Shown in pieces: positions 1,639 to 61,890 of a stretch of 64,000 nt of DNA. The notes beneath the pieces are model-generated. The model was not told where the DNA came from and did no database searches. It was given only the letters and a program-made list of their open reading frames with translations. Both the position numbers and the translations under genes were made by a program. Positions within the stretch are counted from its first letter, which is position 1, and each line of letters begins with the position of its first letter. Source of the stretch: Malania oleifera (Eukaryota; Streptophyta; Magnoliopsida; Santalales; Ximeniaceae); the NCBI RefSeq assembly GCF_029873635.1, contig NC_080423.1, positions 110,873,087-110,937,086 on the forward strand. The letters are read 5' to 3'.

Positions 1639-1843
1639 ATTTATACTACCAGATTCGTCGACGAGACACGTCACCTCGTCGACGAGTTTTTCAGTAAATT
1701 CGTCGATGAGTCCCTGTATTCGTCAATGAAATTTAGAGCAGCTCGAATTCGTCTCTCGGTATTTTCTCGTCGACGAAGCCCTGAATTCGTCGATGAAATT
1801 CTTTAAACCTTCGTCGACGAAACCCTATGTTCGTCGATGAAGT
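1639..1843 (-). promoter_or_regulatory. U3 promoter module: TATA box plus TTCGTCGACGAA palindrome array
   Basis: About eight copies of the 12-nt palindrome TTCGTCGACGAA or close variants lie at 1650-1843, next to a TATA box whose plus-strand image is TTTATACTA at 1639-1649. Most variants differ at CpG positions (CG to TG or CA), as expected from decay of methylated cytosine. The order array, TATA, CT leader on the minus strand fits an LTR U3/R junction. Function is inferred from position only. Confidence 0.65.
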
Positions 1844-1924
1844 CTACGACCTCCTTCTATTTTTGTATCTATTTTCTCTCCCTTTTATTATTATTAAAAT
1901 GCTATTATTCTTCGGGTCACTACA

Positions 1925-4420
1925 GGATTATAGTTTACTAGAAGAAGTATGGAGTGGTAAAGAGGTAAGGCTTTCATATTTGAGAGTTTTTGGTTTGTTG
2001 CATATGTACATATCAATGATCATGTTAGAAATAAGCTTGATCTGAAATCCCGGAAATGCACCTTCGCTGGTTATGGTGGAGATGAATATGGGTATCACAT
2101 TTGGGATGATGAAAACAAAAAAATGATCAGAAGCAGAGATGTGATTTTTGATAAAAAGGCAATGTACAAAGATAGACACACAACAGAATCTGTAGAGTTT
2201 GAAACAACCTTTGTAGATGTGGATGATGTCCTAGAAGGTGTAGGGACATGACAAAGGAACACTGAGAATCCTCAGGTAGAGGAACCTGTGGAGCAGATTG
2301 TTGCACCACTGCCTCCTACTCTAGCACCAGAGCTTAGGATATCTTCTCGACAGCATGAAACAAATAAGAAGTATGTGAATCATTTACTTCTTACAGATGG
2401 AGGAGAACCTGAATGCTATGTTGAAGCATGTCAAGCGGGAGATTCGAGCAAGTGGGAGCTTGCAATGAAAGACGAGATGAAGTCTCTTTACCTCCAACAA
2501 AACATGGGAACTAGCTAAGTTGCCCAAAGGTAAGAAGGCTCTTCACAACAAATGAGTGTACATGATCAAAGAAGAGCATGATAGATCCAAGAGGAATAAA
2601 GCCCGATTAGTAGTCAAAGGTTTCGAACAAAAGGAAGGAATTGACTACACTGATATTTTTGCACCAGTTATGAAGTTGATAACCATCAGATCTGTCTTGA
2701 GTATTGTTACCTCAGAGGACTTACATCTTGAGCAGTTGGACGTAAAGACGACATTTCTTCACGGTGATCTTGATGAGGAAATTTATATGCAATAGCCAGA
2801 AGGTTTCTCAGTTAAAGGTAAAGAGAATCTTGTATGCAAATTGAAGAAGAGTTTGCATGGTCTCAAACAAGCTCATAGGTAGTGGTACAAGAAATTTGAC
2901 AACTGGAAGTAAAGGAACAATTTTCAGAAGTGCAATGCCGACCACTGTTGCTACTTTAGGAGGTATCATACTAGCTATATTATCCTATTGTTATATGTTG
3001 ATGATATACTAGTCGTAGGATCAGATATAAAAGAGATCAGAAAATTGAAGCAGCAATTGTTAGAGGAGTTTGATATGAAAGACTTGGATCCTGCAAAGCA
3101 GATTCTTGGGATACAGATCTCTAAAGATAAGCAACAAGGAACATTACGGTTATCTCAGTCAGAGTACATCAGCCGTGTTTTATAAAGGTTTAACATGAGT
3201 AGCGCCAAAGCTGTAAATACACCATTGGCAAGTCACTTCCGTCTCTCTAAGGATTAGTCTTCCCAGACAGATGAAGAAAAAGATTTCACGGCTAAGGTAC
3301 CATACGCCTCTGTCATTGGAAGTCTCATGTATGCTATGGTTGGTACTAGACTAGATATTGGCCAAGCAGTGGGAGCTGTTAGCGGGTATATGTCAAATCT
3401 AGGAAGACTTATTGGGAAGCAGTGAAGTGGATTTTGAGATATGTACATGACACTATTAATAAGTGCCTATGTTTGGGCAAAAGCGATTTGAAAATTCAAG
3501 GGTATGTAGATGCTGATTTTGCAGGTGAAATTGATCATCGCAAAAACACCACTAGGTATATATTCACTGTTGGCACAACAACTATTAGTTAAATGTCACA
3601 GATACAGAAGATTATTGCTCTATCCACTACAGAAGTTAAGTATGTAGCAGTGACAAAAGCCAGTAAAGAGATGATTTGGCTTTAGGATTTGTTAACAGAG
3701 CTTGGATTAAAGTAGGAGAGGAGCCTTTTGTACAGTGATAGTCAGAGTGCGATACATCTGGCAAAGAACTCCGCATTTCATTCCACAACTAAACATATTG
3801 GACTGCTTTATCACTTCGTTAAATCTCTGATAAAGGACGGCGTGTTGACACTTGAAAAAAATCCAAGGTAGCAGGAATCCGGCAGATATGTTAATAAAGG
3901 TGGTGACTACAGAGAAGATGAAGTTGTGTTCAACTTCAGTTGGTCTTCATGCCTGAAGACATATTTGAGCACATCATTTATTCATATACTGATACTGGTT
4001 GAGGAGGCGTCTCCGTCTCCAAGTGAGAGATTGTTGTGTAGCTGGAGCCAGGAGATGCATGTGAGCTATGATATGCATAATTGCAAACTGGAGATGCGTC
4101 CGCTACATAGCTGTAATCCGCACTATTGATTGAAGATGATTTACTGTAATTCCTTAATTTCATTTATTGTAATTTACTCTAGCTATCTATAAATAGAGAA
4201 GAGTCGTTGAGAGGTAATGTACAGAGAAGAAGGAGAGAGTGTAAAGGAGTGAGGAAGAGAGAAGAGAGAGAGAGTTGCCTCTAAGAGATTGCATTCTTTC
4301 TCGGTTGTATAGTGGATTGTGGTGTGCTCCGTGGACGTAAGTCGATCTAGACCGAATCACGTAAATTTTTGGTGTCTCTCAATTTTCAGGTGTTTGTTTA
4401 TTGCTCATAGGGTCCTAACA
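1925..4420 (+). mobile_element. Ty1/copia element, 3' part, decayed
   Basis: Recognisable copia pol parts occur in order on the plus strand: the end of integrase and the following linker (1930-2500), reverse transcriptase (about 2556-3190, with a YVDD active-site box near 3000), and RNase H (about 3640-3840). An LTR-like tail follows, with a TATA-like CTATAAATAG at 4187-4197 and a terminal CCTAACA ending at 4420. The 5' half lies left of the window, beyond the LTR inserted at 1-1924. The coding region is broken in several places and is a fossil. The exact start of the 3' LTR (roughly 3990-4010) is not certain. Confidence 0.85.
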
Positions 4421-5592
4421 GAGAGGTCATAAAAATTTCAAACTATTAGCTAACATTTTAGTAACTGGCCTCGGTAAGGGCACGTAAACTCGTTCGGTAG
4501 CATATTAAACAAGCTTAAGCCAATAAATTAAAGTTCGGTCAAAGTTTAGTTAAAAATTTAATAAACAAGTTTGAATAAGACAAAGTGCAGCTCGACTTGA
4601 CTCGTGTATGCTCTAGTTGAATGTCTTGGATATAAACTACAAATAATTGAGTGTAAAATGCGAGAAGACTATTTCTTATTATGTAGTTCAAGCTCGTTCG
4701 ACATCTGATAAGCAAAAAAGAAGTAGTGATAATATTCTACTTTCAAGAAAGTGATATTTTAGAATTATTTTTGTTTTGAAAATGTTAAATTTAAATATTT
4801 ATTTTTTAAGGTTATACCATTCTTTTGACTCGTTTTTTTTTTTTTTTTTTGGGGTGGGGTGGTTAGATTTGACTTTGTTTTTTATTTATTCAGTTTTCAT
4901 TTTTATGATTTATCAGCTGAGCTTTATAATATACGTATTTATGATACACAATATATGTAATTATATAAGTGCAAATAATATATGTTCAAAATTCTATTTT
5001 TTCATTTTAAAATAATACGTGCATTGGAAGGAGTTTATTTAATTTTTTTATTTATAAGTGAGATTTTTTGTTCAAATCAGATATTCGATCTGAACTTTTG
5101 ATTAACTATACCTAATCAAGTGACTACTTGATTATCAAATTTGATTTGTCTCCATTTATTTATTCAACATACAGATAAAAAAATCAATTTAGATATTCAA
5201 TACGAGCACCCTTAATTCCTATGATGTCTTTTCTTTTCTTTTTTATTTATTGTTGATCGAGGGTAGATTTTTTGTTGATCTAGAGATCACCAATGAATTA
5301 ATATTGCATCAATATCAGATTGACTTTGTATTAAGAAAAATATACATTGGTGAATATTTTTCAAACCTTGATGATATCATTTGATTGGACAGGAAGTGAG
5401 CTTTCGTTATATATAATTAATGGAAATTTTAAATCGAAAAGCAAAAAAAAAAAATGGTTGATGGAAATAGGTGAGGTGATCTTTTCATTAATTAATGACA
5501 TATTCCACTTGTAACCATTATTTTGATTTCAAATTATGCAACTTCACTTACGAATAATTTCATATAAAATACATTTGTACTGATATATTATG
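4421..5592. other. AT-rich intergenic stretch
   Basis: No gene, RNA or mobile element is recognised. It holds a T tract at 4833-4850 and generally AT-rich sequence between the copia tail and the TRIM. Confidence 0.5.
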
Positions 5593-60899: not shown

Positions 60900-61020
60900 A
60901 ACATAAATAAATACGGCCTTGCGTCGATTTCATTCATAATTGCGGCCTTGCGCCGAAAACATACATAATCCACGGCCTTGCGCCGGCTATCAATCACAGT
61001 TTTGTGCCGAATATATTATA
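60900..61020 (-). repeat. Tandem array with GGCCTTGCGCCG core
   Basis: Four degenerate units of about 28 bp at the same LTR position as the 29-bp CGTACG arrays. Confidence 0.7.
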
Positions 61021-61683
61021 CATACTGATATGAGTAAATGTATTATTTATCATGTATTCTGAAATCATAATGTACTGCATTATCCTGTTATTTCTTAAAA
61101 TCATTGAAACATGCTTTATCTGTTCTGAAATAATATTTTCTGACATTTCATACCAAAAATATACATTCCTAACAGCAGTATTTTCCCAAATGTACATTTC
61201 CTCTATAATACTCATATATAACACATGCATTCTGAACATAAATCTGGTAATAAATAATAGTAATTTTCATGGAAAATTATTGTTTTAGTTTATTCCCTTA
61301 CCTGATTGCTGAAGAGCCCCTACAGTGTCTAGTCCTACACCCACAGGGTTCTTTGTTCAACACCCTAAAAACAATACCTCCCTAAACAAAACTTCAGTAT
61401 TTCTTTGAGTTCTACATTTCTTACAACTGTGGGAAAGCCAAATATTGAGTAAAAAGTCTTACCTTGAATTTGGAATGAAATCCAAGTTAACCCCACTAGC
61501 AATCCACTCCAACAGATTTTAAGAGAACTCTCCCAGGAATGTCGTGGTAGCTTCGGATCGTCAAACCGGCAAGAATCCAGCCCGAAATCTTAGAGAGAAG
61601 GGAAGAGGGACGAACAAGAGAGAGAGAGAGAGAGAGAGAGGAGGGTTTGCGCGTGAGAATTCTACAAAAAAATTCGAGTTTAG

Positions 61684-61890
61684 GCTATTTATACTTGCAC
61701 TCGTTGACGAGCCACGTCACTTCGTCGGTGAAGCCACGAAGGAAGTTCGTTGACGAACATTTATTCCTCGTCGATGAAATTCAAAGCTGAGAAATAGCCT
61801 CTCGGTATCTTCTCGTCGACGAGACACGTCCCTGTCGACGATCCTAATAGGCCTCTTCGTCGATGAATGTGCTGTGTTCGTCGACGAGAC
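61684..61890 (-). promoter_or_regulatory. U3 palindrome array and TATA box
   Basis: TATA image CTATTTATAC at 61685-61694 next to about eight TTCGTCGACGAA-like units. A (GA)n tract at 61618-61640 is the CT leader on the sense strand. Confidence 0.65.

Follow-up and report, generated by a model that had tools for sequence, protein, structure and literature searches.

What does an array of CpG-rich palindromes do in front of the TATA box of a retrotransposon promoter? The question is raised by a 64,000-nucleotide stretch of the Malania oleifera genome (Santalales, Ximeniaceae; contig NC_080423.1, positions 110,873,087 to 110,937,086 of the forward strand), which we call the window and in which eight arrays of the palindrome TTCGTCGACGAA lie within long terminal repeats (LTRs). 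Because the sites have a fixed spacing, stand in a fixed and polar relation to the TATA box and are kept while the spacers between them diverge, we consider the array to be probably a cis-regulatory module, placed upstream in the LTRs of a large group of retrotransposons and selected in both sequence and spacing, to which a dimeric DNA-binding protein would bind.

Arrays of the palindrome in the window and in the genome

A preliminary description of the window had listed eight separate arrays, and all eight are present. If as many as two mismatches are allowed, the window yields 55 matches to TTCGTCGACGAA, where shuffled sequences lead us to expect 1.10; all 55 fall inside the eight arrays and none outside them. 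The assembly of this single genome (1,494,336,490 bases; 1.49 Gb) contains 37,861 exact copies of the word, as against 67 copies of the reversed word and only 7 of TTCGACGTCGAA, a control palindrome with identical letters and three CpGs. Among the matches listed, TTCGTCGACGAA is carried by contigs C1 to C13. Chance and AT or CpG composition were considered as the origin of the arrays and were ruled out by the shuffles and by the reversed-word and CpG-matched controls.

In a fixed grid of 20 stretches of 10 kb over contigs C1 to C7 (200 kb), we counted 5, 21, 59 and 123 matches to TTCGTCGACGAA at zero and at up to one, two and three mismatches, respectively, and 0, 0, 10 and 78 matches to the reversed word. 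The sample contains 10 arrays with at least four sites, which scales very roughly to some 75,000 arrays per genome, a figure with a wide error that derives from C1 to C7 only. At up to two mismatches it also contains 7 lone sites and 2 two-site clusters, compared with 10 matches to the reversed word. This is about the number due to chance, so that isolated sites were rejected as functional units, and it speaks against the units being equally common outside LTRs, an objection foreseen in the preliminary description. Each of the 28 loci sampled around an exact site (L001-L008, L029-L048) has at least five sites, and 30 of the 37 arrays outside the window are flanked on one side by sequence resembling the LTR bodies of the window, the other 7 not. 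The palindrome arrays are thus confirmed as a genuine, genome-wide feature.

Layout of the array

The unit is a 12-bp dyad, YTCGTCGACGAR, with the core TCGTCGACGA. Eight such sites per array are set out at 20-24-20-(44 to 51)-20-24-20 bp, that is, in two groups of four, and the TATA box comes next. Letters 2, 5, 8 and 11 of the site are 96-99% constant, whereas letter 1 is mostly Y and letter 12 mostly R. CpGs lost from the sites have become mostly CA or TG; variation at CpG sites, which the preliminary description took to be the main difference among units, is real, but the non-CpG end letters vary as much. Likewise, its 20-bp spacing of about two helical turns does occur, but as one half of an alternation of 20 and 24 bp, interrupted by a middle gap that measures 45-51 bp in the window. 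The observed/expected ratio of CpG is 1.65-2.41 in the eight arrays and 0.63 in the remaining window.

Since the placement of eight slots permits only a set range of gaps, the gaps counted without reference to a layout and the distances between exact sites are the fairer witnesses for spacing. In 45 arrays, neighbouring sites are separated by 289 layout-free gaps, of which 143 measure 19-22 bp, 74 measure 24-25 bp, 1 measures 29 bp and 71 measure 42-92 bp, the last group comprising gaps in the middle of the array and gaps due to an added upstream site or to a site that was lost; not one of the 289 is under 19 bp, of 23 bp or of 26-28 bp. Exact sites 12-42 bp apart form 3,123 pairs genome-wide (reversed control 0), with 1,180 pairs at exactly 20 bp, 9 at 22 bp and 14 at 12-18 bp, and the 50 distances among the matches listed are solely 19, 20, 21, 23, 24 and 25 bp. 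The regularity of the spacing is thus far above chance. The eight-slot placement itself costs 8 to 39 of 96 mismatches in the 45 arrays and at least 43 in 193 control stretches, and the complete layout, with all eight sites recognisable, is found in 18 of the 45. No compensation among spacer lengths was seen within half arrays (the variance of sums is not below the sum of variances) in the earlier set of 34 arrays used for this test, in which the orientation of L033, L037 and L038 is probably reversed.

A polar relation to the TATA box

Genome-wide, a site (TCGTCGACGAR) is followed within 30 nt by TATAAATA in 9,325 + 8,136 = 17,461 cases, a count in which one array may score twice via its last two sites; the opposite order, TATAAATA and then a site, is found in 49 + 39 = 88 cases, and reversed controls give 1-2. 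Among the matches listed (n = 100) the distance from site to TATA box ranges from 4 to 30 nt, with 40 cases at 8 nt, 28 at 29 nt, 11 at 10-11 nt, 14 at 18-21 nt and 7 at other distances; the 29-nt class is 8 + 21, measured from the next site upstream. Distance and direction are thus fixed and polar. In the window, the claim that a TATA box stands at the downstream edge of the array holds for seven of the eight arrays, the exception being A6 (51348-51589; Table 1), where alignment shows the TATA stretch to be missing.

Two promoter classes can be distinguished among 33 arrays that were placed and oriented. In 19 of them an ACGT core, often GTGACGTGK, occupies the final spacer, which separates site 7 from site 8 (for example at 1666-1674, minus strand) and the TATA box follows mostly at 8 nt; in 6 others GTCAAAGG precedes the TATA box, at a distance of about 19 nt. 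A CT-rich stretch lies downstream of the TATA box.

In all eight cases in the window the array is in the U3 region of an LTR, and its first site lies 69-86 bp inside the LTR 5' end. Related LTR starts, where definable in the window, have an array in 8 of 9 cases, LTR pieces with no defined start being excluded from this count. A4 to A7 have an extra site upstream. The position within the LTR bears on the idea that the palindromes steer insertion or template switching and not transcription, for which the report that plant LTR retrotransposons often insert at palindromes can be adduced (available text of PMC6911290). We regard such an integration or recombination signal as extremely improbable, given that the array is set back from the LTR end and tied to the TATA box.

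Conservation of sites and divergence of spacers

For a comparison by pairs, 33 of the 45 arrays were placed and oriented and 12 were dropped (7 for poor placement, 5 for orientation), leaving 263 of 528 pairs comparable. Site identity lies above spacer identity in 252 of these. In the 55 pairs with spacer identity below 40%, the spacers have a mean identity of 32% and the sites one of 76.5%, the latter value being inflated by the motif-based choice of sites. A motif-blind alignment of six LTRs of the window, with the site columns set on a seventh (A1), gives identities of 79% for sites and 47% for spacers, with 58% upstream of the array and 55% downstream of the TATA box.

One retrotransposon of the window, the A4/A5 element (24386 to 12362, minus strand), carries A5 in its 5' LTR and A4 in its 3' LTR, and allows the sites to be followed after insertion. 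Between its two LTRs, 11 of 108 letters within sites are changed, as are 121 of 2,047 elsewhere (Fisher p 0.09). CpGs are intact in both LTRs at 17 of 24 places within sites and at 51 of 83 outside; by context, losses outside sites are 11/81 for ACG and 7/65 for TCG, which are small counts for judging any special retention of the outer TC of the site. Because the sites of this pair change no more slowly than the rest, they are evidently not slow to mutate. Judged from the pair, the sites are unprotected once an element has inserted, and are retained in the lines that multiply.

These comparisons also bear on a functionless tandem duplication, in which an ancestral 44-bp pair of sites was duplicated and is shared merely through descent. 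Spacers of the same rank are alike in some arrays, CAGGG or TAGGG occurring in 14/34 first, 5/34 third and 5/34 fifth spacers of the 34-array set, and this likeness indicates that the array probably arose by duplication. As an account of its present state, however, descent without function is very improbable, since the spacers have gone down to about a third identity while the sites have kept the identity given above and the spacing has stayed within a few bp, and since in the neutral LTR pair the CpG-rich sites are no slower to change than the remainder.

Several observations weigh against a regulatory module. The spacers are at least as alike as the sites in 11 of the 263 pairs; the inflation of site identity is cured only partly by the motif-blind alignment; and the arrays share common descent, so that 33 arrays are not 33 independent cases and the counts exceed the independent evidence. 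At least one site of the layout is unrecognisable in 27 of 45 arrays, and 10 of 33 have no TATA box of the pattern used. The site starts of the A4/A5 arrays (0, 20, 44, 64, 110, 130, 154, 173) follow no simple 10.5-bp phase, and a related LTR family, which we describe below, manages without the TTCGTCGACGAA palindrome. Finally, one array folded as RNA reaches -66.5 kcal/mol, compared with -50.2 kcal/mol for shuffles (z -4.11).

The folding result would suit a role in RNA, in which palindromes in the transcript's 3' copy of U3 make it fold, either as a functional structure or as a source of small (interfering) RNAs that let the host recognise the element. Also in favour of it are an excess of small RNAs on the LTR palindrome clusters of maize Sireviruses (Bousios 2016, as told in the available text of PMC10760457) and an association of the site end letters beyond chance over all sites (p 0.00016). 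Per slot, however, p is below 0.05 in only 2 of 8, which supports maintained pairing at most weakly; maintenance of the palindrome via paired end-letter changes, as in a hairpin or cruciform, was rejected on the same figures. Moreover, pairing requires neither the exact 20/24 spacing nor a fixed distance and polarity to the TATA box, and silencing of the element would not favour retention of the array. We therefore consider an RNA role quite unlikely.

The host element and related LTRs

The A4/A5 element has a primer-binding site (PBS)-like sequence, TGGTATCAGAGC, after its 5' LTR, a purine tract before its 3' LTR and near-matching flanks (TTATA/CTATA). Its coding pieces give Pfam matches above cut-off (Table 1), and a Chromo match (E 9.5e-05, 22.7 bits) falls just under the cut-off of 25.1. 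On the strength of the reverse transcriptase, RNase H and integrase matches and of the near-cut-off chromodomain, the element is assigned to the Ty3/gypsy chromoviruses; the coding test covers this element alone, the other LTRs being linked to it by LTR similarity and A2 and A3 solely through alignment. Its Pfam matches, being of Ty3/gypsy type, place it outside the Sireviruses. LTR length near 2.3 kb, PBS type and LTR end type suggest that the array-bearing group probably belongs to the Tekay/Del clade; the PBS of the A4/A5 element is one that we take to resemble the tRNA-Met type. The two LTRs have diverged by a Kimura two-parameter distance of 0.065, presumably corresponding to an insertion about 2.5 million years ago at an assumed rate of 1.3e-8, or 4.6 million years ago at 7e-9.

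Table 1. Arrays, coding pieces and nested LTR in the window
Feature	Position	Strand	LTR	Observations
A1	1654..1841	-	5' end 1924 (-)	8 sites; TATA 8 nt past last site
A2	5822..6012	+	5' end 5752 (+)	8 sites; TATA 19 nt past last site; second promoter class, GTCAAAGG before TATA
A3	11548..11738	-	5' end 11807 (-)	8 sites; TATA 20 nt past last site; promoter class as A2
A4	14391..14662	-	14744 to 12362 (-), 3' LTR of A4/A5 element	8 sites and one extra upstream
A5	24032..24304	-	24386 to 22111 (-), 5' LTR of A4/A5 element	8 sites and one extra upstream; PBS-like TGGTATCAGAGC at 22107 (-)
A6	51348..51589	-	51671 to 49737 (-), probably a solo LTR	Extra upstream site; near-matching flanks TTGCC/TTGCA
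A7	53758..53968	+	5' end 53672 (+)	Eroded, 7 recognisable sites; TATA 8 nt past last site
A8	61700..61888	-	5' end 61968 (-)	8 sites, one with 4 mismatches; TATA 6 nt past last site
A4/A5 coding pieces	15010..17619	-		RVT_1, RT_RNaseH, Integrase_H2C2 (zinc-binding), SH3_Tf2-1 above cut-off
Nested solo LTR, related family	17723..19990	+	Within A4/A5 element	5-bp duplication TCTTG; no TTCGTCGACGAA array; AAGCTTCTTnAAGAAGCTT at 17931 and 17989

The solo LTR nested in the A4/A5 element has a different palindrome, AAGCTTCTTnAAGAAGCTT, in its U3. This palindrome has 1,231 sites genome-wide (reversed pattern 0). Among the matches listed (n = 50), neighbours at a distance of 46-104 bp number 14, and 19 pairs have a separation of 7.3-7.5 kb, the latter distance fitting the two LTRs of one element. 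An additional AAGCTTCTTnAAGAAGCTT site lies at 57679.

The LTR bodies, for example at 13500-13700 (minus strand), contain a unit around GCCGGCGTACGGGCCGTGCTATGTG that is repeated in tandem several times, in diverged copies. Among the retrotransposons lies a pentatricopeptide-repeat gene, a single open frame of 1,038 amino acids at 41767-44883 (plus strand) with 21 PPR_2 matches. The gene and the retrotransposon types both fit a plant genome. Rfam gave no match, and a tRNA scan found none.

Comparison with known arrays

Repeated enhancer boxes occur in the promoter regions of plant LTRs, for example in Tnt1. These too are repeated cis boxes, but they number two or three and have no eight-site dyad layout; two or three tandem repeated motifs are mentioned in the available text of PMC2829016.

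The same paper (Bousios 2010) describes, in the text available, the palindromes termed RMs of the Sireviruses, which belong to Ty1/copia. Each of the 13 RM-bearing elements has at least eight copies; in the LTR these lie mostly in the upper half and make up a CpG island, with a conserved TATA box a short way downstream. The palindrome differs by family, the table including CGGTCGACCG for Vitis, and the RM is termed Sirevirus-specific relative to classic Ty1/copia elements. The arrays of M. oleifera are of this kind in that many palindromes form a CpG-rich block in the LTR with a TATA box shortly after. They differ in that Sirevirus RMs, according to that text, share a CGG-CCG core (Tnd-1 excepted), which is absent from the TCGTCGACGA core; in that 9 of the 13 RM-bearing Sirevirus elements have copies also outside the LTR; in that the paper's available text gives no fixed spacing grammar for RMs, unlike the near-fixed layout found here; and in that the host here is Ty3/gypsy. 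Our case is set apart by the Ty3/gypsy chromovirus host, the motif lacking CGG-CCG and the near-fixed 4+4 layout; the kind of array has already been published for Sireviruses.

The preliminary description knew of no named plant element with this sequence. Our literature search likewise found no named plant element with TTCGTCGACGAA, but the statement needs to be qualified by the Sirevirus precedent, as far as PMC2829016 was available. The word TTCGTCGACGAA occurs in 2 papers and one or another of six variants in 11; judged by title, none of them concerns retrotransposons, and among the matches listed there is no report of palindromes in chromovirus or Tekay LTRs, subscription literature being mostly outside the search. 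A pattern scan of IMG/VR gave 0 matches, and a search of public collections with the reverse transcriptase piece matched 4 stretches, 0 of them confirmed. In bacterial and archaeal genomes, 14 stretches have 2 to 6 near-matches each and no four-site cluster, and 12 of the 14 have a GC content of at least 0.65. One stretch, from a contig recorded as a metagenome-assembled Clostridia genome of roe deer rumen (L061:2867-2928; GC 0.44), has three near-matches at 20- and 30-bp spacing and no eight-site array.

If the Tekay label is correct, the broad lineage is shared with the Del LTRs of Cruz 2014 (PMC4029996), whose available text reports that most monocot groups have a plastic 5' CpG island of varying length and sequence, which the eudicot group and its nearest monocot group lack. 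The block found here differs in its near-fixed length and palindromic units, and the word stem 'palindrom' has 0 occurrences in the main text of that paper. VANDAL elements and their VANC proteins offer a further parallel, a short motif that is bound by a protein and densely arrayed in noncoding regions of the mobile element (available text of Hosaka 2017, PMC5735166). There, however, the element encodes its own binding protein, the motif YAGTATTAY is non-palindromic and its copy number varies.

Both comparisons bear on the idea of an anti-silencing platform, in which a protein on the array keeps the LTR unmethylated and any role at the promoter is merely indirect, as with VANC at VANDAL arrays or Sp1 sites at CpG islands. 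The CpG density of the arrays relative to the rest of the window agrees with this, as do the binding of VANC21 to multi-copy short motifs in noncoding DNA (PMC5735166, available text) and the suggestion in the available text of Cruz 2014 that the 5' CpG islands of Del LTRs may help to escape silencing (PMC4029996). On the other hand, the A4/A5 element matches domains of gag-pol type only, so that no element-encoded binder is evident; the CpG decay in its LTRs, inside sites and outside them, argues against these copies having stayed unmethylated; and VANC motifs, in the available text on them, are tandem repeats of one orientation that gain and lose copies, unlike a fixed set of palindromes. 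We think such a platform unlikely.

Proposed mechanism and implications

Of the two explanations offered in the preliminary description, the one in which a dimeric factor has its multimeric site at the LTR promoter is the better supported, through spacing, polarity towards the TATA box and retention of sites. The other, a dense methylation target, is compatible with it, as each site has three CpGs and the CA and TG that replace them are what deamination of methylated C would leave, but it accounts for the decay of the array and not for its retention. In the cis-regulatory module that we favour, each 12-bp dyad would be occupied by one homodimer of a single protein that binds DNA sequence-specifically; a transcription factor of the host is the likeliest candidate. 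With the spacing fixed at 20/24, neighbouring dimers could make contact with one another and with the basal machinery, and the bound array would activate the LTR under some condition or in some cell type. If its 24 core CpGs became methylated, the module would be switched off and dead copies would be marked, whose CpGs would decay afterwards.

We also advance, as a doubtful possibility, a stronger proposal, namely that a single dedicated dimeric protein has in the eight dyads one symmetric nucleoprotein scaffold, laid out as 20-24-20, gap, 20-24-20, and that sister chromovirus families compete by swapping operators, for instance for AAGCTTCTTnAAGAAGCTT. That a sister family has AAGCTTCTTnAAGAAGCTT in its U3 suggests an exchange of operators between families. 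If the proposal is true, plant LTRs would have converged in their evolution on a rule of operator exchange at a fixed promoter position, as the differing palindromes of Sireviruses also suggest.

The fixed geometry offers a direct handle for finding the predicted binding protein. With the array present, by rough estimate, in LTR copies that may number tens of thousands, one DNA-binding protein would switch a large part of the genome. Palindromic CpG-rich promoter arrays are not confined to Sireviruses, which bears on what such arrays do.

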